Origin: Solirubrobacterales bacterium
Lineage (GTDB): Bacteria; Actinomycetota; Thermoleophilia; Solirubrobacterales; Solirubrobacteraceae
NCBI GenBank assembly: GCA_003138355.1
Contig: PLFX01000016.1
Span: 123,251-187,250, forward strand
Length of the DNA: 64,000 bases
Direction of reading: 5' to 3'
Below are positions 11,373-49,153 of the stretch, piece after piece. A program made the position numbers and the translations under genes. The first letter of the stretch is position 1, and each line of letters opens with the position of its first letter. The notes beneath the pieces are model-generated. The model did not search any database. It had not been told where the DNA came from and worked only from the letters and a program-made list of their open reading frames with translations.

Positions 11373-12182
11373 GTGAACACACAGGAGAAGCAGCGCATCA
11401 CGGCCGAGGAGGTGCTGGTCCTGTGGACCGACTACCGCGAGAGTGGGGACCGCAGGCTGCGCGATCGCCTCGTTCTCACCTTCGCGCCGATGGTCAAGTA
11501 CATCGTCTACAAGAAGATTCGCGAGATCCCCGCTCGCTGCGACGTTGAGGACTTCATCTCGTGCGGTCTCGAGGCGCTGATCCGCTCGATCGACCGTTAC
11601 GACCCGGCGAAGGGCGCGACGCTCGAGCAGTTCGCGTGGACGCGGATCCACGGGGCCGTCCTCGACGAGCTGCGCCGTCACGACTGGGCGCCGCGCTCGC
11701 TGCGCCGCTGGGAGCGCGACATCAAGCAGGCGAGGGAGCGCTTCATGACATTGCACGGTCGTCGGCCAACGCGCGAGGAGCTCGCGGAGATGGTGGGTCT
11801 GACGACCGAGAAGCTCCACAGCAAGCTCGACGACATCGCTGTCTGCGATGTCGGCTCCCTGAACGCGCTCGTCTCCGGCGCCGGCGAAGAAGGGTCGCTC
11901 GAGCGGATCGACCTCGTGACGAGTAACGACCGCGACGCCGACCCCGAAGACGCGAGCGCCCTCTCCGAGGCCAAGGAACGCTTCCGCGCCGCTTTCCGGC
12001 GCCTGCCCGAGCGCGAGCGCCACGTGGCGATCCTGCTCTACGTCCAGAACATGACGCTGCGCGAGATCGGCGGCGTGCTCGGCGTGTCCGAGAGCCGCGT
12101 CTGCCAGATCCACACCCAGCTGCGCCGCACGCTGCGAACGCTGCTCGAGGACGACGCGGCGCTCTTCTCCGAAGTCGCCTAG
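11373..12182 (+). CDS. fliA: FliA/WhiG-family RNA polymerase sigma factor
   Basis: This 269-residue sigma70-family factor has region 2 (FAPMVKYIVYKK, DVEDFISCGLEALIRSIDRYDP, FAWTRIHGAVLDELR), region 3 (REELAEMVGLTTEKLHSKL) and region 4 (RLPERERHVAILLYVQNMTLREIGGVLGVSESRVCQIHTQL). The I-x-G-A-x-x-D-E-L-R block is characteristic of the FliA/SigD/WhiG flagellar or sporulation group. The start is the GTG at 11373, preceded by GAGGAG at a 6-base spacing; the longer track ORF is unsupported upstream. Its neighbours (PilZ, FlaG-like) favour a flagellar role over a WhiG-type role. It converges with the ParB-fold gene one base away. Confidence 0.88.
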   Translation: MNTQEKQRITAEEVLVLWTDYRESGDRRLRDRLVLTFAPMVKYIVYKKIREIPARCDVEDFISCGLEALIRSIDRYDPAKGATLEQFAWTRIHGAVLDELRRHDWAPRSLRRWERDIKQARERFMTLHGRRPTREELAEMVGLTTEKLHSKLDDIAVCDVGSLNALVSGAGEEGSLERIDLVTSNDRDADPEDASALSEAKERFRAAFRRLPERERHVAILLYVQNMTLREIGGVLGVSESRVCQIHTQLRRTLRTLLEDDAALFSEVA

Positions 12183-12183
12183 A

Positions 12184-12594
12184 TCACCCTGGCGGGCTGA
12201 GCGGGCCCGTTCCGCCTGGCCCCAGCATCAGTAGCCGGCCGGGGACGAGCGAGTCCTCATCGGTCAGGAATGCCGCGCAGGTGCGGTGGTAGCCGTCTGC
12301 GATCTGCACGACGACCTCCCGACGCACGCAGACCAGCAGGATCGGCGAGAGCGCGATCACGCCTCTGATGTGGCCCAGCTTCTCCGCGACCTCGGTGCTC
12401 TCGGTCTTCGTCAGCAGTGGCAGGTGCGCGGCGCGCAGGATGTCCTTCGCCCGCCATGAGCCGACCGGTGCCTGCGTGAGCCCTTCGATGAGCTCGTCGA
12501 GCTCGGCCTCCGGCACGAACAGCGACAGGTAGCTGCGCGCGGCGGCGTAATCCTTCGCCTCCGGCTCCTCCAGCCACCTAATCTTCTTGGCCAC
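12184..12594 (-). CDS. ParB/sulfiredoxin-fold-like small protein
   Basis: This protein of about 136 residues starts at the GTG at 12594 (VAKKIRWLEEPE), just after the MoaD-like stop. The C-terminal part reads GVIALSPILLVCV followed by QIADGYHRTCAA. This resembles the ParB/sulfiredoxin fold, in which a conserved G-x-HR motif sits in a nucleotide or phosphate pocket. No helix-turn-helix follows, so plasmid partition is unlikely. As the third gene of the SAM-riboswitch operon it may work in the same sulfur/amino-acid pathway. Its function is not established. Confidence 0.6.
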   Translation of the reverse strand: MAKKIRWLEEPEAKDYAAARSYLSLFVPEAELDELIEGLTQAPVGSWRAKDILRAAHLPLLTKTESTEVAEKLGHIRGVIALSPILLVCVRREVVVQIADGYHRTCAAFLTDEDSLVPGRLLMLGPGGTGPLSPPG

Positions 12595-12604
12595 CGCGGG
12601 TAGC

Positions 12605-12880
12605 CTAACCGCCCGCGACGGCAGGCAGGATCGTGACCTCGCTGCCGTCGGGCACGGGCGTGGCAAGTCCGCTCAGGAAGCGGATGTCCTCGCCGGCGAC
12701 GTAGATGTTCACGAAGCGTCGCAGCGCACCGCGCTCGTCGGCGATCCGCTCGCGCAGCTCGCTGAAGCGACCGAAGAGCGCCTCGAGAACCTCAGCCACC
12801 GTCTCGCCTTCCACATCGACGGCGCTCTCCCCGCCGGTTGCAGGGCGCAGGGCGAGCGGGATTTTCACCGCGACCGCCAT
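12605..12880 (-). CDS. MoaD/ThiS-family sulfur carrier protein
   Basis: This 91-residue beta-grasp protein ends in the di-glycine tail AVAGG. After adenylation and thiocarboxylation that tail would carry sulfide, as in MoaD, ThiS and CysO. The sequence shows VAEVLEALFGRFSELRERI, NIYVAGEDIRFLSGLATPV and SEVTILPAVAGG. The ATG at 12880 overlaps the threonine-synthase stop as TGATG, so the two are translationally coupled. That points to delivery of sulfur to the neighbouring PLP enzyme rather than to molybdopterin or thiamine. No E1-like activating enzyme is in the window. Confidence 0.85.
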   Translation of the reverse strand: MAVAVKIPLALRPATGGESAVDVEGETVAEVLEALFGRFSELRERIADERGALRRFVNIYVAGEDIRFLSGLATPVPDGSEVTILPAVAGG

Positions 12881-14142
12881 CACGCCACCGCCCCAAACGC
12901 GAAGCTCGCTTCGAACGCGTCGACGGTCGGCTCGATCGCGCGCCGAGCGATGCTCTCGCGCACGGCATCGAGCGTCTTCAAGCCGTCGCCGGTGATCACG
13001 AGCACGACGCGCTCATCCGGATCGATCTCACCGCTTCGCGCCAGCTTGGCAAGCACCGCGGTGCTCACTCCGCCGGCTGTCTCGGTGAAGATCCCTGTCG
13101 TCTGCGCGAGCAGGACGATCCCCTCACGGATCTCGTCGTCGCTGACCGCCTCGACCGAGCCGCCGCTGCGGCGCGCAAGGTCGAGCACGTACGGTCCGTC
13201 GGCGGGATTGCCGATCGCCAGCGACTTCGCGATCGTGTCCGGCTTCACCGGCTGGCAGAAGTCGAGCCCGGCGGCGTAAGCGTTAGCGACCGGCGCACAG
13301 CCGCTCGCCTGCGCGCCGTTGAGCACGGGCGGCGCGCCTTCGACGAGGCCGAGCTCGCGCCACTCCTCGAAGCCCCGCGCGATCTTCGTGAACAGCGAGC
13401 CGGAGGCGATCGGAATGATCAGCCGGTCGGGCAGCGTCCAGTCGAGCTGCTCGGCGATCTCGAAGGCGACCGTCTTCGAGCCCTCCGCGTAGTACGGCCG
13501 CATGTTGATGTTCACGAACGCCCAGTCGTCGTGCTCGGCGGAAACCTCGGTGCACAGCCGGTTCACGTCGTCGTAGGTCCCGCGCACCTCGACGAGGTTA
13601 GTGCCGTAGATGCCGGTCGCGATGACCTTCTGCTCCTCGAGATCAGCCGGGATGAAAACGTAGGAGGGCAGTCCGATCGCCGCCGCCTGCGCGGCAACCG
13701 CGTTGCCGAGGTTGCCGGTCGAGGCGCACGCGAGCGCCTTGAAGCCGAGCTCACGCGCGCGCGCCGAGGCGATCGCGACGACGCGATCCTTGAACGAGTG
13801 CGTCGGGTTCGCCGTGTCGTTCTTGACGTAGACGTTGCGCAATCCGAGCTGCTCGCCGAGGCGCTCCGCGCGCACGAGGGGCGTGTAGCCGACCGGCAGC
13901 CCGGCGAGCGGGAACGTGCGGTTGCCAGGGCCCGGCGGCGGGCCCTCGAGCGGCAGGAAGTCGGCGTAGCGCCAGAGATCGGCCCGCCCCGCCTGGATCC
14001 GCCGGCGCAGCTCCTCTGGGTCGCCGTGTCCCGAGTGGTCGTACACCGCCTCGAGCGGCCCGAAGCAGCGCTCGCACACATACAGCGCTTCCAGCGGGTA
14101 CTCGGTCCCGCACTCCTTACATCTGAGCTTCTCTACCGCCAT
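12880..14142 (-). CDS. Threonine synthase family PLP enzyme under SAM riboswitch control
   Basis: This 420-residue fold-type II PLP enzyme begins with a zinc-ribbon (CKECGTEYPL...CERC). The PLP lysine lies in NPTHSFKDR, with the phosphate-binding ASTGNLGNAVAAQAA downstream and ITGDGLK near the end. By homology it would convert O-phosphohomoserine to threonine. However, it follows a SAM-I riboswitch, a device normally guarding methionine or cysteine genes, and is fused translationally to a sulfur carrier. A beta/gamma-replacement reaction using carrier thiocarboxylate to make homocysteine is therefore plausible. That is inference; plain threonine synthase remains the default. Confidence 0.85.
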   Translation of the reverse strand: MAVEKLRCKECGTEYPLEALYVCERCFGPLEAVYDHSGHGDPEELRRRIQAGRADLWRYADFLPLEGPPPGPGNRTFPLAGLPVGYTPLVRAERLGEQLGLRNVYVKNDTANPTHSFKDRVVAIASARARELGFKALACASTGNLGNAVAAQAAAIGLPSYVFIPADLEEQKVIATGIYGTNLVEVRGTYDDVNRLCTEVSAEHDDWAFVNINMRPYYAEGSKTVAFEIAEQLDWTLPDRLIIPIASGSLFTKIARGFEEWRELGLVEGAPPVLNGAQASGCAPVANAYAAGLDFCQPVKPDTIAKSLAIGNPADGPYVLDLARRSGGSVEAVSDDEIREGIVLLAQTTGIFTETAGGVSTAVLAKLARSGEIDPDERVVLVITGDGLKTLDAVRESIARRAIEPTVDAFEASFAFGAVA

Positions 14143-14143
14143 G

Positions 14144-14175
14144 AAAAAGAACCTCCGCCGGTCTTGTGGCGAAGG
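14144..14175 (-). terminator. Riboswitch expression platform: attenuator hairpin covering the ribosome site
   Basis: On the minus strand an 8-bp stem (CCTTCGCC, 8-base loop, GGCGGAGG, one G-U pair) runs directly into TTCTTTTT and then the ATG at 14142. It has the form of an intrinsic terminator. Its 3' arm also contains the GGAGG Shine-Dalgarno nine bases from the start codon. Folding could therefore stop transcription and hide the ribosome site together. Confidence 0.7.
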
Positions 14176-14192
14176 CTCTCGGTAACCCCCTC

Positions 14193-14302
14193 CACATCTC
14201 CCAGGCTTTCATTGGAGCCTGATGGAATTGGCACCGTTTACCGCTTGCGCGGCATGGTTGCCGGGGTTTCATAGGGCCAGTCCCTCCACCCCTCTGGATG
14301 CG
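14193..14302 (-). ncRNA. SAM-I (S-box) riboswitch
   Basis: The minus strand carries the S-box core: GGTGGAGGGACTGGCCCTAT, then GAAACCCCGGCAACC, then the P4 segment GGTGCCAATTCC, then GGGAGATGTG. P1 is closed by CGCATC at the 5' end and GATGTG at the 3' end (one G-U pair). These are the conserved elements of the SAM-binding aptamer. It lies 50 bases upstream of the threonine-synthase-like gene and should switch off the three-gene operon when S-adenosylmethionine is abundant. Confidence 0.93.
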
Positions 14303-14391
14303 TCCAGCTATGTACCAGCCAGTATAGGCACAGCCGGCGGCGCAATCAATCGAGTAGCCCCCCCTACCGGGATAGGCCCTACGCTCTCCGC

Positions 14392-15342
14392 GTGGCGCAA
14401 GCCGCCGACCCGCTCGACCCACCCCCGCGCCGGCGCGCGCTCGTGATCGTCAACCCGTACGCGAGCGCCGTCTCCGACCGGCTGCGTACCGTCGTGCTCT
14501 CCGCCCTCGCTTCGCGATTCGAGCTCGAGGTGATCACCACACGCGCCCAAGGGCACGCGACCGAGCTGGGATTTATGGCCGCCTCCGGCGGCTACGGGCT
14601 GGTCGTGGCACTCGGTGGCGATGGGACGGTCAACGAGGTCGTGCAGGGGCTCGCCGGCTCGGCAGTCCCGCTGACACCGCTCCCGGGCGGCTCGGCCAAC
14701 GTCCTCTGCAAGCTGCTTGGGATCCCCGGCGAGATCGTCGACGCGACCGAGTACCTCCTCGGGCTCGCCGATAAGTGGCGCGTGCGCACGATCGACCTCG
14801 CGCGCGTCAACGGCCGCTATTACACGTTCAGCGCCGGAGTCGGCATCGACGCCAGCGTCGTGAAGGTGGTCGACGCGCGCTCAGCGCTGAAGGCACGGCT
14901 CGGCGCGAGTTTCTTCGCTGCTTGTGCGCTCTACGTGGTCGCGCGCCACTACCTCGTTCGCCCGCCGCAGTTGCGCGTCAGCGTCGATGCCAACGAGTTC
15001 AGCGGCATCACGGCGGTCGTCCAGAACGGCCATCACTACACCTACTTCAACGACCATCCGATCGACCTCGCGGCCGGCGCCACACTGGACGGCGGCCGTC
15101 TCGCCGGCGTCGTACTGCGACGCGGGTCGCCGGTGGACCTACCGACGCTGCTCTGGCGCGGGCTCAGCAGCCGTCGCGACATAGGCGCGCACCGCCAGGT
15201 CGACGCGTTCACAACCTCGACCGGCGTGACGGTCGAGGCGGTCGATCGGCCGCTACCGCTCCAGCTCGACGGCGACTACGTCGGCGATGTCGAGCGGGCG
15301 CACTTCGAGCTCGTGCCCCAGGCACTGCGCGTCGCCTGCTGA
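14392..15342 (+). CDS. Diacylglycerol/sphingosine kinase family lipid kinase
   Basis: This 316-residue DagK/YegS-type lipid kinase shows ALVIVNPYAS near the N-terminus and the ATP-binding LGGDGTVNEV followed by PLPGGSANVLCKLLGIP. The C-terminal half is the beta-sandwich catalytic domain ending QLDGDYVGDVERAHFELVP. It would phosphorylate a lipid such as diacylglycerol at the membrane. The GTG at 14392 is the start. It is divergent from the riboswitch operon, sharing a short upstream region. The exact lipid is unknown. Confidence 0.85.
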   Translation: MAQAADPLDPPPRRRALVIVNPYASAVSDRLRTVVLSALASRFELEVITTRAQGHATELGFMAASGGYGLVVALGGDGTVNEVVQGLAGSAVPLTPLPGGSANVLCKLLGIPGEIVDATEYLLGLADKWRVRTIDLARVNGRYYTFSAGVGIDASVVKVVDARSALKARLGASFFAACALYVVARHYLVRPPQLRVSVDANEFSGITAVVQNGHHYTYFNDHPIDLAAGATLDGGRLAGVVLRRGSPVDLPTLLWRGLSSRRDIGAHRQVDAFTTSTGVTVEAVDRPLPLQLDGDYVGDVERAHFELVPQALRVAC

Positions 15343-37255: not shown

Positions 37256-38350
37256 TCAGGCCATCGGGAGCTCGACGAGCTCCCGCGGCGGCGGTCCGTC
37301 GTGCGGCGGCTGGGGCGGCTTCGAGCGCCGGCTCGGGAGCCACTGGCGCGAGCTGACGAGCGCGCGGATCGATTGGCGCGCGGAGGATGCCGTCGCGAGC
37401 GCGGCGGTCGGCTCGTAGCCGCAGTGAGCCATGCAGTTCGCGCAGCGCGGGTCGCGACCGCGGCCGTACTTGTCCCAGTCGGTCGTCTCGACGAGCTCCT
37501 TGTAGGTCTCGACGTACCCGTCACTCATCAGGTAGCACGGGCGCTGCCAGCCGAAGATCGAGTAGGACGGGATGCCCCACGCGGTGCAGGAGTAGTCGAC
37601 CTTGCCCTCGAGGAAGTCGAGGAAGAGCGGCGAGTGGTTCAGGCGCCAGCGCTTGCGGGCGCCGTTCGCGAAGGCGGCGCGGAAGAGCTCGTGGGTCTGC
37701 TTCACACCGAGGAAGTGCTCCTGATCCGGCGCCTTCTCGTAGGCATACGCGGGCGAGATCATCATCGCGTCGACCTCGAGCTCGTCGTTGAGGAAGTCGA
37801 GCACCTGGCGCACGGTGTCCGGTGAATCGTGTGTGAAGAAGGTCGTGTTAGTTGTCACGCGGAAGCCGCGTTCCTTCGCCGCCTTGATCGCGGCAACTGC
37901 CTTGTCGAAGACGCCGTCGCGGCAGACTGACTCGTCGTGGCGTTCACGCAGCCCATCCATGTGCACCGCCCAGGCGAAGTAGCGACTCGGCTCGAAGAGG
38001 TCGAGCTTGCGCTCCATCAGGATCGCGTTGGTGCAGAGATAGATGTAGCGCTTGCGCTTGATCAGCTCGCGCGCGAGCTCGTCGATCTCGGGGTGAATCA
38101 GCGGTTCGCCGCCGGCGATCGAAACCATCGGCGCGCCCGACTCTTCGATCGCCGCGATCGCTCGGTCGACCGGCATGCGCTGGCGCAGGATGTGGTCGGG
38201 GTGCTGGATCTTGCCGCAGCCCGCGCACTCGAGGTTGCATTGGTAGAGCGGCTCGAGCTCGACGATCAGCGGGAAGCGTTCGCGCTTGGCAAGTTTCTGG
38301 CGGGCGATGTAGCCGCCGACCGCCATGCTCTGGCGTAGCGGGACGGTCAT
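37256..38350 (-). CDS. hpnH: Hopanoid biosynthesis radical SAM protein HpnH
   Basis: A 364-residue radical SAM enzyme that joins the adenosyl group of SAM to diploptene, giving adenosylhopane, the first step to extended hopanoids. The [4Fe-4S] motif is CNLECAGC (CxxxCxxC), followed by MVSIAGGEPLIHPEI and a C-terminal SPASM-like Cys cluster (DPRCANCMAHCGYEP). The ATG at 38350 overlaps the upstream ispH stop (ATGA). It is the last gene of the hopanoid operon. Confidence 0.93.
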   Translation of the reverse strand: MTVPLRQSMAVGGYIARQKLAKRERFPLIVELEPLYQCNLECAGCGKIQHPDHILRQRMPVDRAIAAIEESGAPMVSIAGGEPLIHPEIDELARELIKRKRYIYLCTNAILMERKLDLFEPSRYFAWAVHMDGLRERHDESVCRDGVFDKAVAAIKAAKERGFRVTTNTTFFTHDSPDTVRQVLDFLNDELEVDAMMISPAYAYEKAPDQEHFLGVKQTHELFRAAFANGARKRWRLNHSPLFLDFLEGKVDYSCTAWGIPSYSIFGWQRPCYLMSDGYVETYKELVETTDWDKYGRGRDPRCANCMAHCGYEPTAALATASSARQSIRALVSSRQWLPSRRSKPPQPPHDGPPPRELVELPMA

Positions 38351-39879
38351 CCGTTCCTCGCGACGTTCGGCGGGAGCTTGAAACGAATCGTCTCCGTCGC
38401 GACGGTGCGCTGCGCGCACGTGACGGGTCCGAGCCCGGCGAGCGCGCCGACGACGCCCTCGACGAGCTCCTCGGGCGCGGAGGCACCCGCGGTCAGGCCA
38501 ATCCGGCGCGTGCCGGCGAGCAGCGCCGGACGGATGTCCTCCGCGTGCTCGACGAGCGCGGCCGGACAACCAGCGCGCTCGGCGACCTCGACGAGGCGCT
38601 GCGAGTTAGAGGAGTTCTGCGAGCCCACGACGAGAACGATGTCACACTCGCCCGCCAGGGCTCGGACGGCGTCCTGGCGGTTCTGTGTCGCATAGCAGAT
38701 GTCGTCGGATGCGGGGCCTGCCAGCAGCGGAAAGCGCTCGCGCAGGCGTTCGACGACGCGGTTGGTCTCATCCACGGCCAGCGTCGTCTGCGTGAGGTAG
38801 GCAACGCGCGTTGGGTCGTCGACCTCGACGTTGACGACCTCCTCCGCCGACGCGATCACCTGGACGCGCTCGGGTGCCTCGCCGAGAGTCCCATCGACCT
38901 CCTCGTGGCCCTCGTGCCCGATCAGGACGATGTCGAAGCCCTCGCGGGCAAAGCGCCGCGTCTCCGCATGGACCTTTGCCACGAGCGGACAGGTCGCGTC
39001 GATCACGTCCAGTCCGCGCTCGCCGGCCTCAGCGCGGACAGCCGGTGAGACGCCGTGGGCGGAGAAGATCACGGTCGCGCCGTGCGGAACCTCGTCGAGC
39101 TCCTCGACGAACACCGCGCCGAGCGCCTCGAGCTCGCGCACGACGTGCACGTTGTGCACGATCTGCTTTCGCACATAGATCGGAGCGCCACGCTCTGCGA
39201 GCGCGCCGCGGACGATGTCGACGGCGCGCACGACGCCCGCGCAGGATGCGCGCGGCGCGCCGAGGACCACGTCGCGCTCGCCGAGCAGCTCGGCCCACTC
39301 CTCGAGCAGGCCGGCGGCGCGGCGCAGCGAGCGGTAGGCGGCGAGCGCTCCCGAGGCCGCGCGGATCGGGCGGTACAACTCGTGGCTCGTGCTGTCGGAC
39401 ACGACGCGCAGGGTCACGAGCGGGCACGCCGTGGCCCGGCCCGCGATCCACGAGGACTCCATGTCGACCGCGATCGCGCCGCGTTGCGCGAGCTCGCGCC
39501 GCGCCGCGCCGTGAACGATCCGCGGCGAGCAGTGAATCGGACCGGTATGAACGCGCAGGCCACCGCGGCGCAGGATGCCGGCAAGGATCGCCGGATTGGC
39601 GCACTCGACCGTGTCGTCCGCGCTGCGCAGCTCGCTCGCGAGCACCACGTCGCCCGGCTCGAGCGAGTCGTCCAGCGCGCCCGCAAAGCCCGCGATCACG
39701 ACCGCGCTGGCGGAGTCCTGGGCGAGCCACGCGGAGCGCTCGGCGTTGCGCGGTCCGACGCCGAACTGCTCGACGCGCGCCCATGGCGCGCCGGAGCGCA
39801 CTGCGCGCGCTTCGACCCCCATCGGCGTCAGCACAACGAGGCTGCGTGTGCGCGGGGCGGTCTCGAGCAATGCGCTCAT
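38347..39879 (-). CDS. HpnG-IspH fusion: hopanoid nucleosidase joined to HMBPP reductase
   Basis: One 510-residue chain has two parts. Residues 1 to about 200 form an MTA/SAH-nucleosidase-like domain (FGVGPRNAERSA, GFAGALDDSLEPGDVVLAS, VDMESSWIAGRA) matching HpnG, which removes adenine from adenosylhopane. Residues about 203 to 505 form a full IspH (4-hydroxy-3-methylbut-2-enyl diphosphate reductase, the last step of the MEP pathway): Cys in APRASCAGVVRA, DATCPLVAKVH and DDICYATQNRQ, with SQNSSNSQRL near the end. All three iron-sulfur Cys are present, so both halves look functional. It is coupled to shc upstream and hpnH downstream. Confidence 0.88.
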   Translation of the reverse strand: MSALLETAPRTRSLVVLTPMGVEARAVRSGAPWARVEQFGVGPRNAERSAWLAQDSASAVVIAGFAGALDDSLEPGDVVLASELRSADDTVECANPAILAGILRRGGLRVHTGPIHCSPRIVHGAARRELAQRGAIAVDMESSWIAGRATACPLVTLRVVSDSTSHELYRPIRAASGALAAYRSLRRAAGLLEEWAELLGERDVVLGAPRASCAGVVRAVDIVRGALAERGAPIYVRKQIVHNVHVVRELEALGAVFVEELDEVPHGATVIFSAHGVSPAVRAEAGERGLDVIDATCPLVAKVHAETRRFAREGFDIVLIGHEGHEEVDGTLGEAPERVQVIASAEEVVNVEVDDPTRVAYLTQTTLAVDETNRVVERLRERFPLLAGPASDDICYATQNRQDAVRALAGECDIVLVVGSQNSSNSQRLVEVAERAGCPAALVEHAEDIRPALLAGTRRIGLTAGASAPEELVEGVVGALAGLGPVTCAQRTVATETIRFKLPPNVARNG

Positions 39880-41795
39880 CGCGTGTAGCGCCCCAGCGCC
39901 ATGATCGGAAACACGAGCCTGTAGAGGTGGTAGTTGATGTAGAAGTCAGACGGGAAGCCGGTGCCTGTGAAGTAGGGCTCATCCCAGGTCCCGTCGGGCC
40001 GTTGCGTGTCGGCGAGATAGAGCAGCCCGCGGCGAACCGCGTCGGAGTGCTCGCCCGCTGCGTGCAGGGCGATCAGCGCCCAGGCGGTCTGCGAAGCGGT
40101 GCTCGCGCCGCGACCCGCCCATTCGTGGTCGAAGTAGGAGCGGATGTCCTCACCCCAGCCGCCGTCGGCGTTCTGGTGCTCCTCGAGCCAGCGAACGGCG
40201 CGGCGGATGCGCAGATCGCGCGGCGAGACGCCGGCCGCGACCAGCGCCGGGACGACGGCCCCGGTCCCGTAGACGTAGTTGACGCCCCAGCGCCCGAACC
40301 AGGACCCGTCCGGTTCCTGGTTGTCGCTCAGCCAGCCGAGCGCGCTCTGCGCATATTCGCTGTCGGTCTCGCCGTAGGCCGCCAACATCTCGAGCACGTG
40401 TGCGGTTACATCGGCGCTCGGCGGGTCGATGACTTCGCCGAAGTCGCAGAACGGGAGCTCCCGGATCACGGGCCTCGTGTTGTCGGCGTCGAACGCACCC
40501 CAGCCGCCGTCGCTCGAGCGCATCCCCTTCGTCCAGCGGACTCCGAGCTCGATCGCGCGGTCGAGCCGCGCGCGATCGGGATGGTCGGCGCGTAGCAGCG
40601 CGAGCACTACCTCCGCCGTGTCGTCGATATCCGGATAGTTGTCGTTGGCGAACTCGAAGGCCCAGCCGCCGGGGGCAAGCCCCGGGCGCCGCACCGACCA
40701 GTCGCCTTTGACCAGAACCTGCTCGTCAAGTAGCCACTCGGTGGCCTCGACGATCGCCGGGTCATCAAGCGGGGCGCCGGCGTCAGCGAGCGCAATCAGC
40801 GCGAGCGCCGTATCCCAGACGGGCGACTGGCAGGCCTCCAAGCGTCGCCCATCGCGGTCGCGGATCGTGAAACGCTCGAGCCCTGCGAGACCGGCGTGTA
40901 TCACCGGGTGCTCGAGCGGGTAGCCGCGCAGGTGCAGCGCGATCAGCGAATAGACCCACGGCGGCTGGATTCCCCCCCACGATCCGTCGGCTTCCTGGCG
41001 CGAGACGATGAACCGCTCCGCGCGGCGCGCGGCGTACTCGCGCAGCACCCGCACGGGACGGCGCTCGTAGACGTGCAGCAGGCGGTCTGTCCAGAGGAGC
41101 AAGCGCGCGCGCCAGGTCGTCGCGTGTGGCGGCTGCCACGGCTGGGGCCCGTGCAGCTCCGGGGTCGCGAAGCCAAGCGACCGGACGGGGCGCTGCGCCG
41201 AGACGAGCGTCAAGGCGACGACCGTCTGGCGCGCCCAGCAGGCGAAGTCGTAGATGTTCAGCGGAATCCACGGCGGCAGCAGCATCAGCTCGGGCGGCAC
41301 CACCGGGATCTGCTCCCATGACCAGAGCCCGAAGAGCGCGAGCCAGACGTGGGTGAAGACGCGCGCACGCTCGAGCCCGCCCGCAGCGCGGATCCGCTCG
41401 GCGGCCGCGCGCATGTGGTCGGCGCCGGGTGGGTCGCCGCCGAGGCGCAGCGCGAGATAGGCCTCGATCGTCGTCGAGAGATCGCCGGGGCCGCCGTAGA
41501 ACTTCGCCCACTGCCCGTCCGCCAGCTGCTGGCTACGGATCCATTCGCACGCCTCGCGCGTGACCGCGTCGGTGCGGATGCCGAGGAACTCGCGCAGCAG
41601 CAGGTCCTCGGCGTCCATCGTCACGTTCGTCTGGAGCTCGCCCTTCCACCAGCCATCGGCGTGCTGTAGCCCGCGCAGCTGCTCGACGGCACGACGGAGC
41701 GCCCGGGCGGGCGTCCCGACCGGGACCGCGGGCGCATCGCGAAGGACCGTTACCGAGTCGGCGGGCGCCTCGCCGACCTGCACTGCAGCGCACAT
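39876..41795 (-). CDS. shc: Squalene-hopene cyclase
   Basis: A 639-residue cyclase that converts squalene to hopene/diplopterol at the membrane. The catalytic acid motif DIDD is in NYPDIDDTAEVVLALL, and several QW repeats are visible (GWWKGELQTN, GSWGGIQPPWVYS, GSWFGRWGVNYVYGTG, TWDEPYFTGTGFPSDFYINYH). The start is ATG 41795 (MCAAVQVGEAP); the longer frame runs through the RpiB gene. The stop overlaps the HpnG-IspH start as ATGA. Genes for squalene synthesis (hpnCDE) are not in the window. Confidence 0.94.
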   Translation of the reverse strand: MCAAVQVGEAPADSVTVLRDAPAVPVGTPARALRRAVEQLRGLQHADGWWKGELQTNVTMDAEDLLLREFLGIRTDAVTREACEWIRSQQLADGQWAKFYGGPGDLSTTIEAYLALRLGGDPPGADHMRAAAERIRAAGGLERARVFTHVWLALFGLWSWEQIPVVPPELMLLPPWIPLNIYDFACWARQTVVALTLVSAQRPVRSLGFATPELHGPQPWQPPHATTWRARLLLWTDRLLHVYERRPVRVLREYAARRAERFIVSRQEADGSWGGIQPPWVYSLIALHLRGYPLEHPVIHAGLAGLERFTIRDRDGRRLEACQSPVWDTALALIALADAGAPLDDPAIVEATEWLLDEQVLVKGDWSVRRPGLAPGGWAFEFANDNYPDIDDTAEVVLALLRADHPDRARLDRAIELGVRWTKGMRSSDGGWGAFDADNTRPVIRELPFCDFGEVIDPPSADVTAHVLEMLAAYGETDSEYAQSALGWLSDNQEPDGSWFGRWGVNYVYGTGAVVPALVAAGVSPRDLRIRRAVRWLEEHQNADGGWGEDIRSYFDHEWAGRGASTASQTAWALIALHAAGEHSDAVRRGLLYLADTQRPDGTWDEPYFTGTGFPSDFYINYHLYRLVFPIMALGRYTR

Positions 41796-41832
41796 GCCCC
41801 ACCCGTATATCCGATCGAAGATGAGAGGAGCC

Positions 41833-42285
41833 TTAGAGCCCCTCGCGCGCCTCGAGCGTGCCGAGGTGGGCGATGCTCTCGAGGTCGGCCTGCTTGTCGC
41901 TTGGCGGCGTGGAGAACCAGGCGTCGAGGATCTCCGCAAGTTCTGCGTCGGCGGTCGAGCGCAGGCTGAGCGCAAGAACGTTTGCGTCGTTCCAGCGGCG
42001 CGCTCCGGCCGCGGCGACGGCGTCATGACAAAGCGCCGCGCGGACGCCGGGAATCTTGTTCGCCGCGATCGCGGCGCCGGTGCCGGTCCAGCAGCAGACG
42101 ATCGCCTGATCGGCTGCACCACCGACGACCTCACGAGCGGCGGCGGCAGAGCTCAGCGCCCAGTCGGGCTGCTCGCCGTCGGTGAGCGCGCCGTGAAGCA
42201 ACAGTTCGTGGCCCCGCTCCCCCAGTTCCACCGGGAGGATCACGGCAATCCCGGTCAGCTCATCCGCGGCCACGGCAATCCGCAC
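41833..42285 (-). CDS. Divergent RpiB/LacB-family sugar-phosphate isomerase
   Basis: A 150-residue RpiB-type protein. The conserved second half is present (GTGAAIAANKIPGVRAALCHDA, RRWNDANVLALSLR) and the catalytic Cys is kept in VCCWTGTG, but the Gly after it is Trp and the N-terminal DHAG phosphate-binding motif reads DELTG. It may therefore act on something other than ribose-5-phosphate. It lies 37 bases upstream of shc on the same strand. HpnG liberates a ribosyl hopane, so a sugar isomerase here may be more than chance; that is inference. The GTG start (42285) gives the standard RpiB N-terminus. Confidence 0.72.
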   Translation of the reverse strand: MRIAVAADELTGIAVILPVELGERGHELLLHGALTDGEQPDWALSSAAAAREVVGGAADQAIVCCWTGTGAAIAANKIPGVRAALCHDAVAAAGARRWNDANVLALSLRSTADAELAEILDAWFSTPPSDKQADLESIAHLGTLEAREGL

Positions 42286-44603: not shown

Positions 44604-46838
44604 ATGACATTCGACTTCGACGCTCTCTACGACCGTGCCACCCGCGCGGCGACGCCAGCGGAACGTGACGCCTGTCAGGATGAGATCGACCGGGCGCTTG
44701 CGGGCACTGCGGATGCTGCCGACCGTGGGCGGCTCCTCATGTGCCGGGCGCGCCTGCGCTCGAACCAGTGGCGCACGACGGACGTCGTTGCCGACGCCCA
44801 GAGTGCGTTCAAGCTCTTCGAGCGGGCCGGCGAGGAGGAGCTCGCCGTCGAGGCGGCGAGCCTCGCGTCGGCGCACGCGTCCCGCCTGGGCGAGCTGTCG
44901 CTCGCCTCGGAGCTCGCGACGAAGTGCATTCTCGCGCTCGACTGGCTGCCCATGGGCAGGCCGCGGCTCGAGATCACCAACCGGCTTGGGATCTACTGCT
45001 ACTCGTGCCTCGACTACGAGCGCGCCGGGGAGCTGTACACAGCCGCGCTCGCGATGGCCGAGGAGCTTGGCGATACCGAGCGGACCTGGCGCCAGCTGTT
45101 CAACGTCGCCGACGCGCTCCTGCTCGCTGCGCGCCACCGCCGTCGTCTCGGGCTCGATGGCGAGATGGCGCTGCTCGACCGCGCGGAGGCGTTGGTACGC
45201 CGGCTTCTCGCGGAGGCGCCGCTCGAGGTGCACCGGCGCTTTGCCACCCACCGTGTGCTGGCCGAGGTGCTTTGCGAGCTCGGCCGCGTCGACGAGGCGC
45301 TCAGCGCACTCGACGCTTCGCGCGGTCCGCTCGAGGATGTCGCACAGACGGCCCAGCGCGCGGCGCTCGGGTGGGTCACGGCGCGGTGCCTGCGCGCCTC
45401 CGGGCGGGCCACCGAGGCAATCGAAGCCGCGGCGACCGCGGTCGCGATCGCCGAACAGAGCGACGACGATCACGAGCTGATGCTTGCGCTTGAGGAGCTC
45501 GCCGCAAGCCAGGAGGCGGCCGGCGACGCATCTGGGGCGCTCGCGACCGCGCGCGAGGTGAACTCGCGAATGTGGGCGATCCATCAGCGCCAGACGACCC
45601 AGCTCGTCGAGGAGGCGTTCGCTCGCGCCGACCTGGAGCGCGAGCGCCGCGCGCTCGAATCCGAGGCGGCTGACGCGCACCGGGCGACCAGCGAGAAGTC
45701 CGCATTCCTCGCCAACATGAGCCACGAGATTCGCACGCCGATGAACGGCGTCCTCGGCATCGCCGAGATCCTGCTCGATACAGAGCTCAACGACGGCCAG
45801 CAAGAGCTCGTCCGCCAGCTCAGCGGCTCCGGTGAGCACCTCATGAGCGTCATCAACGACATCCTCGACCTCTCGAAGATCGAGGCCGGGCGGATGGAGC
45901 TCGACTTCACCGACTTCGACCTGCGCGACAACATCGAGCAGACCTGCGCCGCTGCGCGCGTCCAGGCCGAAGCGAAGGGCCTCGCGCTCGACGTGCACTT
46001 CGGCGAGCTGGTGCCGCGGCGGGTCTCCGGAGACGATCGCCGCATGCGCCAGGTCCTGACGAACCTCCTGGGCAACGCGATCAAGTTCACCGCTAAGGGA
46101 GCTGTCGGCGTCGAGGTCACCGTCGAGCTGCTCGAACTGCGGCGGGCACACGTCACGATCGCGGTCGCGGATACCGGGATCGGTATCGAGCCGCCGGCAC
46201 TCGAGCGCATGTTCGAGCCGTTCACCCAGGCGGGCGCCTCGACCGCTCGCAACTACGGCGGCACCGGCCTCGGCCTGACCATCGCGCGTCAACTGGCAGA
46301 GCTGATGGGTGGCACGATCCGCGCAACCAGCGATCCGGGCCACGGGAGCACCTTCGTCTTCGAGCTCGAGCTCGCGGTCGCGCGCGACTCGGGGCTTACT
46401 GCGGTGCGCAGCGAACCCGCGGAGACTGCGCACCCGCACTGGTCGCGGCCACCGCTCGTGCTTGTAGCCGAGGACAATCCGGTGAACCAGCTCGTCGTTT
46501 CTCGCGCGCTCGAGCGCGCGGGCTGCCAGGCCGAGATCGTCGGCGACGGCGAGCAGGCGCTCCAGGCGCTCGCGGAGCGCCGCTATGACGCAGTCCTGAT
46601 GGACTGCCAGATGCCGGTGCTTGACGGCTATGAGGCTACGCGCGAGCTACGCCGCCGCGAGAACAGCTCTGAGCACACGCCGGTGATCGCGATGACCGCG
46701 CACGCGATGAAGGGCGCGATCGATGATTGCCTGGAGGCCGGAATGGACGACTACCTGTCCAAGCCGCTGCGACGCGAACAGCTCAACCAGGCGCTCGCGC
46801 GCTGGATCCCCTCACAGACTGGCAGCGCAGCAGCGTGA
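44604..46838 (+). CDS. Cytosolic TPR-hybrid histidine kinase A
   Basis: A 744-residue kinase with no membrane segment. Residues 1 to about 320 are helical repeats of the TPR type ([59 protein letters not shown]). Then a short coiled coil, HisKA with [15 protein letters not shown] (His374), HATPase with [16 protein letters not shown] and [10 protein letters not shown], and a receiver with Asp667 ([11 protein letters not shown]) and KPL. It likely senses a cytosolic protein or state through the TPR array. It is followed 77 bases later by a close paralogue with an identical layout. Confidence 0.9.
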
Positions 46839-46915
46839 TTATCGGCGAGCGTGGCGAGCGCTCGCATAGGTGAAGCCAGCGCGAATCGCTGTCGATATTC
46901 CCAAGAGACTCCCGG

Positions 46916-49153
46916 ATGGCGATCGATCTAGACACGCTCTACGAGCGCGCGAGCCGCGCCGCGACGCCCGGCGAGCGCGAAGCCTGCGATCGCGAGATCG
47001 ATGACGCGCTCGCGGCGAGCGCCGATCCGGTCGAGCAGGGGCGGCTGCTGATGTGCCGGGCCCGCTTGCGCTCGAACCAGTGGCGCACGGCGGAGGTCGT
47101 GGCAGCAGCGGAGAGCGCGATCGTGCTGTTCGAGAGCTGCGGCGAGGACGAGCTGGCGGTTGATGCGGCGAGCTTTGCGATGGCGCACGCCTCGCGACTC
47201 GGGGAGCTCTCGCTCGCCTCAACTCTCGCAACGAGATGCATCCTCGCACTGGACTCCCTGCCGGTCGGAGGGCTGCGAGTCGAGATCCTCAACCGGCTCG
47301 GTATCTACTGTTACTCCTGCCTCGATTATGGCCGCGCGGTCGATCTGTACGAGGCCGGTCTGGCGGTCTCCGAGGAGCTCGGCGACGACGACCGCACCTG
47401 GCGCCAGCTGTTCAACATCGCCGACTCACTCCTGCTCGCAACGCATCGGCGCCGGTGGGTGGGCCTTGACCCTGACCGGGCGGTGCTCGAACGCGCCGAG
47501 ACGGCCGCGCGACGGTTGATTGCGAACGCACCGCCGGAGGTCCACCGCCTGTTCGGCAGTCATCGTCTGCTCGCAGAAGTGCTGTGCGAGCTCGGAGACC
47601 CAGCGCAGGCGCTCGCTGTGCTCGACGACTCTCGAGATCAGTTCGAGACGGCGAACCTCGGAGTCGAGCGCGCGGCACGCGCCTATGTGCAGGCGCGCTG
47701 CTTGCGGGCTCTCGGGCGCCCGCAGGAGGCGGTCGACGCAGCGCGGCTCGCCGTGCAGATCGACGAGCACAGCGGCGACGATCACGAGCTGATGCTCGCG
47801 CTCGAGGAGCTCGGTGCGAGCGAGGAGGCCGCCGCGGACACCGCCGCAGCGCTCACGACATCGCGCCACGTGAACGCGCGAATGTGGACGATCCACCAGC
47901 GCCAGACGATGCAGCTCGTCGAGGAGGCTTTCGCCCGCGCCGACCTCGAACGCGGCCGCCGTGCGCTCGAATCGGAGGCGGCGGCCGCGCAGCGCGCGAC
48001 AAGCGAGAAGTCGGCATTCCTGGCGAACATGAGCCACGAGATCCGCACGCCGATGAACGGCGTGCTCGGCATCACCGAGATCCTGCTCGAGACGGACCTC
48101 GACGAAAAGCAGCGCGAGCTCGTCCACCAGCTCGCCGGCTCCGGCGAGCACCTGATGGGCGTCATCAACGACATCCTCGACCTCTCGAAGATCGAGGCCG
48201 GCCGGATGGAGCTCGCTGTGGGGGAGTTCGACCTGCGCGACACAATCGAGCAATCGTGTGCGGCCGCCCGTGTCGAGGCCGATGCGAAGGGGGTGGCGTT
48301 CGAGCTGTCCTTCGCCGAGTACGTTCCGCAGTGGGTCGCGGGCGACGATCGGCGCGTGCGCCAGGTCCTCCTGAATCTCGTCACGAACGCGATCAAGTTC
48401 ACGGCCGCCGGATTTGTCGCGGTCGACGTCTCAGCCGAGTTGCTGCCAAGCCGCCGGGCTCGCGTAACGATTGCGGTCAGTGACAGCGGGATCGGGATCG
48501 AAGCGCCGGCGCTCGAGCGCATGTTCGAGCCGTTCACCCAGGCGGACGCCTCGACGACCCGCAACTACGGCGGCACGGGGCTTGGCCTGACGATCGCACG
48601 ACAGCTCGCGGCGCTGATGAACGGCTCGATCCGCGCCACGAGCGGGCCGGCGCGTGGCAGCACCTTCTTCTTCGAGCTCGAGCTGGCAGTGCTCCGCGCC
48701 AGCCGCCGCCAGACCATCGATGCCTCGAGCCGGGAGAGCGCGCTGCCGAGCTGGCGCGAGGCCCCGCGCGTGCTCGTGGCCGAGGACAACCCCGTCAACC
48801 AGATCGTGATCGTGCGCGCCCTGGAGCGAGCCGGCTGCATTGCCACGGTCGTCAACGACGGCGAGCAGGCGCTCGAAGCGCTCGCGAAGGAGTGCTACGA
48901 CGTCGTGCTGATGGACTGCCAGATGCCCGGCATGGACGGCTATGAGGCGACCCGCGAGCTACGCCGCCGCGAGGAGCGGGACGGGGCTCACGTGCCCGTC
49001 ATTGCGATGACCGCACACGCGATGGAGGGCGCCGCCGACGAGTGCCGCGCCGCGGGGATGGACGACTACCTGAGCAAGCCGCTGCGGCGCGAGCAGCTGA
49101 ACGACGCGCTGGCGCGCTGGATCCCTGCCGAGAAGCACAGCGCCGCCGCCTGA
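46916..49153 (+). CDS. Cytosolic TPR-hybrid histidine kinase B
   Basis: A 745-residue paralogue of the preceding gene, aligned almost residue for residue: TPR-like region ([40 protein letters not shown]), HisKA His374 in [15 protein letters not shown], HATPase [20 protein letters not shown], receiver Asp667 in [11 protein letters not shown]. Tandem duplication is the simplest origin. The two differ most in the TPR surface and the kinase-receiver linker, which fits two related inputs. Receiver output partners are unknown. Confidence 0.9.

Follow-up and report, generated by a model that had tools for sequence, protein, structure and literature searches.

In Wolinella succinogenes, the HcyS route makes homocysteine from a thiocarboxylated carrier, and the reaction depends on a MetY-type enzyme acting on O-acylated homoserine. 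In the MetM/MetO system described in 2024, MetO is likewise said to be thiocarboxylated and to donate the sulfur. As cited in PMC12172450, MetM of Streptomyces is a novel homocysteine synthase that converts O-phosphohomoserine (Hasebe et al. 2024, Appl Environ Microbiol 90:e01247-24). The same source cites metO as the putative sulfur-carrier gene found with metM and describes metM of S. albulus as being preceded by a SAM riboswitch. A cyanobacterial relative that is 51.6% identical to S. albulus MetM also lies beside a metO-like gene; in vitro it is chiefly a threonine synthase/deaminase, and its homocysteine activity is unproven (PMC12172450).

Here, we discuss a locus with the same arrangement in a window of 64,000 nucleotides (the window being the whole stretch of DNA that was analysed; Table 1). 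We put the probability that this locus is a MetM/MetO homocysteine-synthesis operon under SAM control at roughly 0.85. The preliminary description had read it as a SAM-I riboswitch ahead of a threonine synthase relative coupled to a di-glycine sulfur carrier, and the profile searches bear out these elements: the aptamer scores above the RF00162 gathering score of 44.4 bits, the enzyme matches PF00291 and exceeds the cut-off of TIGR00260, and the carrier belongs to PF02597, ends in Gly-Gly, and overlaps the metM stop. The chemistry proposed there, with O-phosphohomoserine and a carrier, is already published as MetM/MetO in 2024. The locus is a clear example of the published pathway in another actinobacterial lineage, not a new kind of system.

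Table 1. Features of the locus (coordinates are window positions).
Feature	Coordinates	Strand	Details
Sigma-70-like promoter, TTGATT-17 nt-TATACT	14321-14349	minus	9/12 consensus positions; ends 16 nt upstream of the aptamer
SAM-I (S-box) riboswitch aptamer, RF00162	14191-14304	minus	86.2 bits, E 5.1e-19, full-length model
Expression platform	14142-14190	minus	Hairpin GAGAGCCUUCGCC/GGCGGAGGUUCUU sequestering Shine-Dalgarno GGAGG
metM-like gene, 420 aa	12880-14142	minus	N-terminal Cys4 zinc-ribbon-like segment and PLP fold-type II domain
metO-like sulfur carrier gene, 91-92 aa	12605-12883	minus	ThiS/MoaD/CysO-like; overlaps the metM stop
Third gene, 136 aa	12184-12594	minus	GTG at 12594, stop to 12184; starts 10 nt past the carrier stop

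The match of the enzyme to PF00291 has an E value of 2.5e-72. Its best NCBIfam model is threonine synthase (TIGR00260; 270.6 bits, cut-off 167.1), while the CysM model reaches 42.7 bits. However, the ThrC-type active-site motifs are absent. The window enzyme instead carries SFKDRVV, STGNL, RPYYAEGSKT, ETAGG, and GLKT, which are common to the MetM clade, i.e., the window enzyme and 41 relatives (the likeness to S. albulus MetM is drawn from its published description). In 42 of 42 clade members, compared with three canonical ThrC proteins (that of the same genome, L002, plus L070 and L071), SFKDRVV stands for SFKDRGM, STGNL for STGNT, EGSK(T/S) for (E/Q/D)GQ(K/R)T, ETA(G/A)G for EPAS, and G(L/Y/F)KT for GLKD. 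We offer these substitutions as putative clade markers. Moreover, a tree of 49 proteins separates the window enzyme and the 41 relatives with 100/100 support, and the canonical ThrC of the same genome and other ThrC-like proteins fall outside this 42-member clade. Within it, the window enzyme is 55-57% identical to the proteins of a large-genome actinobacterial family (f25). It is not a member of the CysK/CysM branch, and the CysM-like gene of the genome sits elsewhere. A mis-called CysM-CysO pair was rejected because the CysM-CysO cluster is located on a different contig.

The TIGR00260 score, together with the threonine synthase and deaminase activity of the cyanobacterial relative (PMC12172450), would fit an additional threonine synthase, or an enzyme with both threonine synthase and deaminase activity, beside which the carrier and the riboswitch are incidental. 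This reading is very improbable and was rejected on the motifs, the tree, and synteny. The genome already has a canonical ThrC in its hom-thrC-thrB operon, SAM control would be odd for a threonine gene, and no other homocysteine synthase was found in the genome. In addition, the active-site motifs differ from those of ThrC throughout the clade, and the linkage to the carrier and to the riboswitch is conserved, as discussed below.

The carrier has two candidate start codons, GTG at 12883 and ATG at 12880, both of which overlap the stop of the upstream metM. Its C terminus, ILPAVAGG, ends exactly at 12605. The match to PF02597 (ThiS family) has an E value of 7.6e-14, and the nearest solved relative is M. 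tuberculosis CysO (3dwg). Among the relatives, which are 41 MetM-clade loci from other genomes of the phylum, a metO-like gene lies within ~1.5 kb downstream of metM in 38, and a SAM-I riboswitch lies upstream of metM in 33 (19/20, 4/9, and 10/12 in the three batches). The order riboswitch-metM-metO in Nonomuraea gerenzanensis is identical to that of the window. Neither a carrier nor a riboswitch was found at the six loci examined that encode more distant ThrC or ThrC-like proteins (L066-L071). The MetM/MetO pairs of family f17 showed no Rfam riboswitch in any of the five members examined (L036, L038, L041, L042, and L044). At L055, L061, L062, and L065, the MetO-like carriers extend past the Gly-Gly and would need trimming before thiocarboxylation, for example by a Mec-type protease.

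The exceptions to the carrier linkage (L020, L057, and L060) have a SAM riboswitch and metM, and no adjacent metO was detected; in these genomes, the carrier gene may lie at another site, or the enzyme may do without a carrier. These three loci would be consistent with an enzyme that converts O-phosphohomoserine to homocysteine with free sulfide as the main donor, the carrier serving another enzyme. We regard this as unlikely: the metM and metO genes overlap here and are adjacent in 38 of the 41 relatives, and MetO reportedly acts as the carrier in the 2024 MetM work.

With respect to the leader, the promoter is the only sigma-70-like one in 12100-14500, where shuffled sequences predict 0.1, and the aptamer is the only RF00162 match in the whole genome. 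In computed folds, the hairpin downstream of the aptamer comprises 13 pairs and covers the Shine-Dalgarno sequence, for which the unpaired probability is ~0. The folds also reveal a competing pairing between GUGG in the P1 3′ strand and CCAC in the hairpin. The Shine-Dalgarno hairpin is present both in the free leader fold (-79.6 kcal/mol) and in the fold with P1 enforced (-79.5 kcal/mol). The GUGG-CCAC pairing costs 5.9 kcal/mol in stability in the full leader; it belongs to the best fold of a fragment beginning at the aptamer 3′ end. Several relatives have comparable hairpins close to the start codon that differ in sequence, and their P1-strand partners are complementary with other letters. 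Compared with shuffles, the pairing between the P1 3′ strand and the hairpin reached p < 0.05 individually in 5 of 14 sequences (L019, L023, L024, L028, and L029), and for the leader of the window itself it was not significant (58/300). A scan of the leader for an intrinsic terminator found none by its rule, and translational control by sequestration of the Shine-Dalgarno sequence is therefore the favoured model. Yet a U-rich tract lies past the hairpin, and transcription termination may be an alternative mechanism.

The pathway content of the genome also supports the operon reading. The preliminary description had called for a search for a second thrC and for metY/metZ; the former was found, in the hom-thrC-thrB operon, and no standard homocysteine pathway was detected in the genome, which is 93.7% complete. 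No enzyme of the Cys_Met_Meta_PP family (PF01053), which covers MetB, MetC, MetY, and MetZ, exceeds the cut-off in the genome, and all 14 control genomes have one. The searches of the genome for MetA and HcyBio found none, and that for MetX gave weak, short matches only. Homocysteine must therefore have another source, for which MetM/MetO is the sole candidate found in the genome. Downstream of this step, an open frame of 1206 aa has a homocysteine S-methyltransferase domain and matches MetH in size, which identifies it as the putative MetH of the genome. The completeness of 93.7% counts against our reading in that a MetX or MetY could therefore have been missed.

The genome also encodes the machinery expected for a carrier-dependent cysteine pathway. 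On another contig, outside the window (C35, L006:450-3241), MoeZ-like, CysO-like, CysM-like, and JAMM-protease-like (Mec) genes follow in a row, which is the mycobacterial cysteine-synthesis arrangement; the names MoeZ (rhodanese and ThiF parts) and JAMM were assigned by reading the translations. The mycobacterial MoeZR works in both molybdenum-cofactor and cysteine synthesis (PMC3227635). By analogy, the MoeZ-type enzyme of this cluster could also charge MetO. With such a cluster in the same genome, phospho-substrates and carriers thus appear to be the basis for the synthesis of both sulfur amino acids.

Of 297 genomes sampled in the phylum, 22 have both MetM and MetX, 86 have MetM only, and 81 have MetX only. 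The two tend to exclude each other (Fisher p 8e-5, a value that ignores the relatedness of the genomes). The 22 genomes with both argue against our reading, as does the cyanobacterial relative, which is mainly a threonine synthase/deaminase in vitro (PMC12172450). In total, a MetM-grade match is present in 108 of the 297 genomes sampled, suggesting the breadth of the MetM/MetO route within the phylum. In a further 108 genomes, MetM-grade and MetX-grade matches are both absent.

On the basis of these data, the operon would operate as follows. When SAM is low, the riboswitch would leave the ribosome-binding site open, so that MetM and MetO could be produced. With SAM bound, the hairpin that holds the ribosome-binding site, followed by the U-rich tract, would turn expression off. 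MetO would be charged by adenylation and thiocarboxylation of its C-terminal Gly-Gly, the MoeZ-type enzyme of the CysO-CysM-Mec cluster being the most likely activator. ThrB would supply O-phosphohomoserine as the substrate of MetM, the hom-thrC-thrB operon being the proposed source of both O-phosphohomoserine and threonine. On its PLP, MetM would eliminate the phosphate and take up sulfur, either from thiocarboxylated MetO or from sulfide, so that homocysteine is formed; MetH would then methylate the homocysteine to methionine. The suggestion in the preliminary description that O-phosphohomoserine and the carrier thiocarboxylate yield homocysteine is very probably right in view of the second ThrC and the lack of a standard pathway, the activity of the enzyme being what we infer.

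The third gene stands apart from this scheme. It is a real gene by sequence criteria because its homologues are conserved, and its product has a conserved IADGYHR motif; searches of Pfam, NCBIfam, and PDB sequences gave no match. For the predicted structure, which is of low confidence (pLDDT 64.7), the top fold match is sulfiredoxin (E 0.53, non-significant), and SbnI appears lower among the best matches, all with E values of at least 0.5 and likewise non-significant. The ParB fold named in the preliminary description is therefore a candidate only; a ParB/sulfiredoxin-type fold is plausible, as the motif and the predicted secondary structure fit it. SerK and SbnI are serine kinases of the ParB fold (PMC12704722). 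The preliminary description had suggested that this gene may be an unrecognised pathway component. It could, for example, be a SerK/SbnI-like ParB-fold small-molecule kinase making the phosphorylated substrate; these fold matches, the motif, and the location of the gene, which follows metO in the same orientation after 10 nt, would favour such a role. However, the gene is found at none of the 41 relative metM loci, and ThrB is already encoded in the genome. It is present in five of the 297 sampled genomes, own included. In two of them (G056, C246/C75; G190, C81/C73), it lies on a contig separate from metM, and in two others (G038 and G097), it is present without a MetM-grade match. The homologues elsewhere are 42-49% identical, and none is near metM; they occur in Mycobacterium genomes and on plasmids of, among others, Rhodococcus, Xanthomonas, and Pseudomonas. 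In three different genomes or plasmids (L013, L016/L064, and L074), they adjoin an antiporter gene, annotated as a cation:proton antiporter in L074 and read from the translation in the other two, and a functional link of the family to such antiporters is possible. A role in the pathway was consequently rejected on synteny and is highly doubtful; the same low likelihood applies to a ParB-fold kinase or regulatory accessory recruited in this lineage only, which would supply or regulate O-phosphohomoserine. The third gene is probably a co-transcribed passenger.

Elsewhere in the window, reading by eye points to a hopanoid-looking cluster on the minus strand (37256-42134). It includes open frames that look like a squalene-hopene cyclase (39876-42134) and a radical-SAM HpnH-like protein (37256-38569), and another (38347-39879) in which a nucleosidase seems to be joined to an IspH-like domain. 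On the plus strand (44604-49153), two adjoining hybrid histidine kinase/response-regulator genes, of 744 and 745 aa, resemble each other very closely and apparently represent a tandem duplication.

These findings extend the methionine route described in 2024 to another actinobacterial lineage. Current models name the MetM-clade enzymes threonine synthase, so methionine auxotrophy may be wrongly predicted, and the clade motif set could help annotators to separate MetM from ThrC. Relative to known systems, the locus most resembles that of S. albulus: in both, a threonine-synthase-like PLP enzyme is followed by a carrier gene, a SAM riboswitch lies upstream, the organism is without the usual homocysteine enzymes, and O-phosphohomoserine is the substrate (presumptively so for the window enzyme). 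The window locus differs in coming from a different actinobacterial lineage and in having an unrelated third gene after metO. With CysM-CysO of M. tuberculosis (together with MoeZ and Mec), it shares the combination of a PLP fold-type II enzyme and a MoaD/ThiS-like carrier; CysM, however, makes cysteine from O-phosphoserine, whereas the window MetM belongs to the threonine-synthase branch and has an N-terminal Cys4 segment and a SAM riboswitch. Canonical ThrC has the same fold and presumably the same substrate, O-phosphohomoserine, but its SFKDRGM, STGNT, GQ(K/R)T, EPAS, and GLKD motifs are replaced in the MetM clade. Finally, the HcyS route of Wolinella succinogenes also obtains homocysteine from a thiocarboxylated carrier; its enzyme, however, is of the MetY type, a family that was not found in the host genome.
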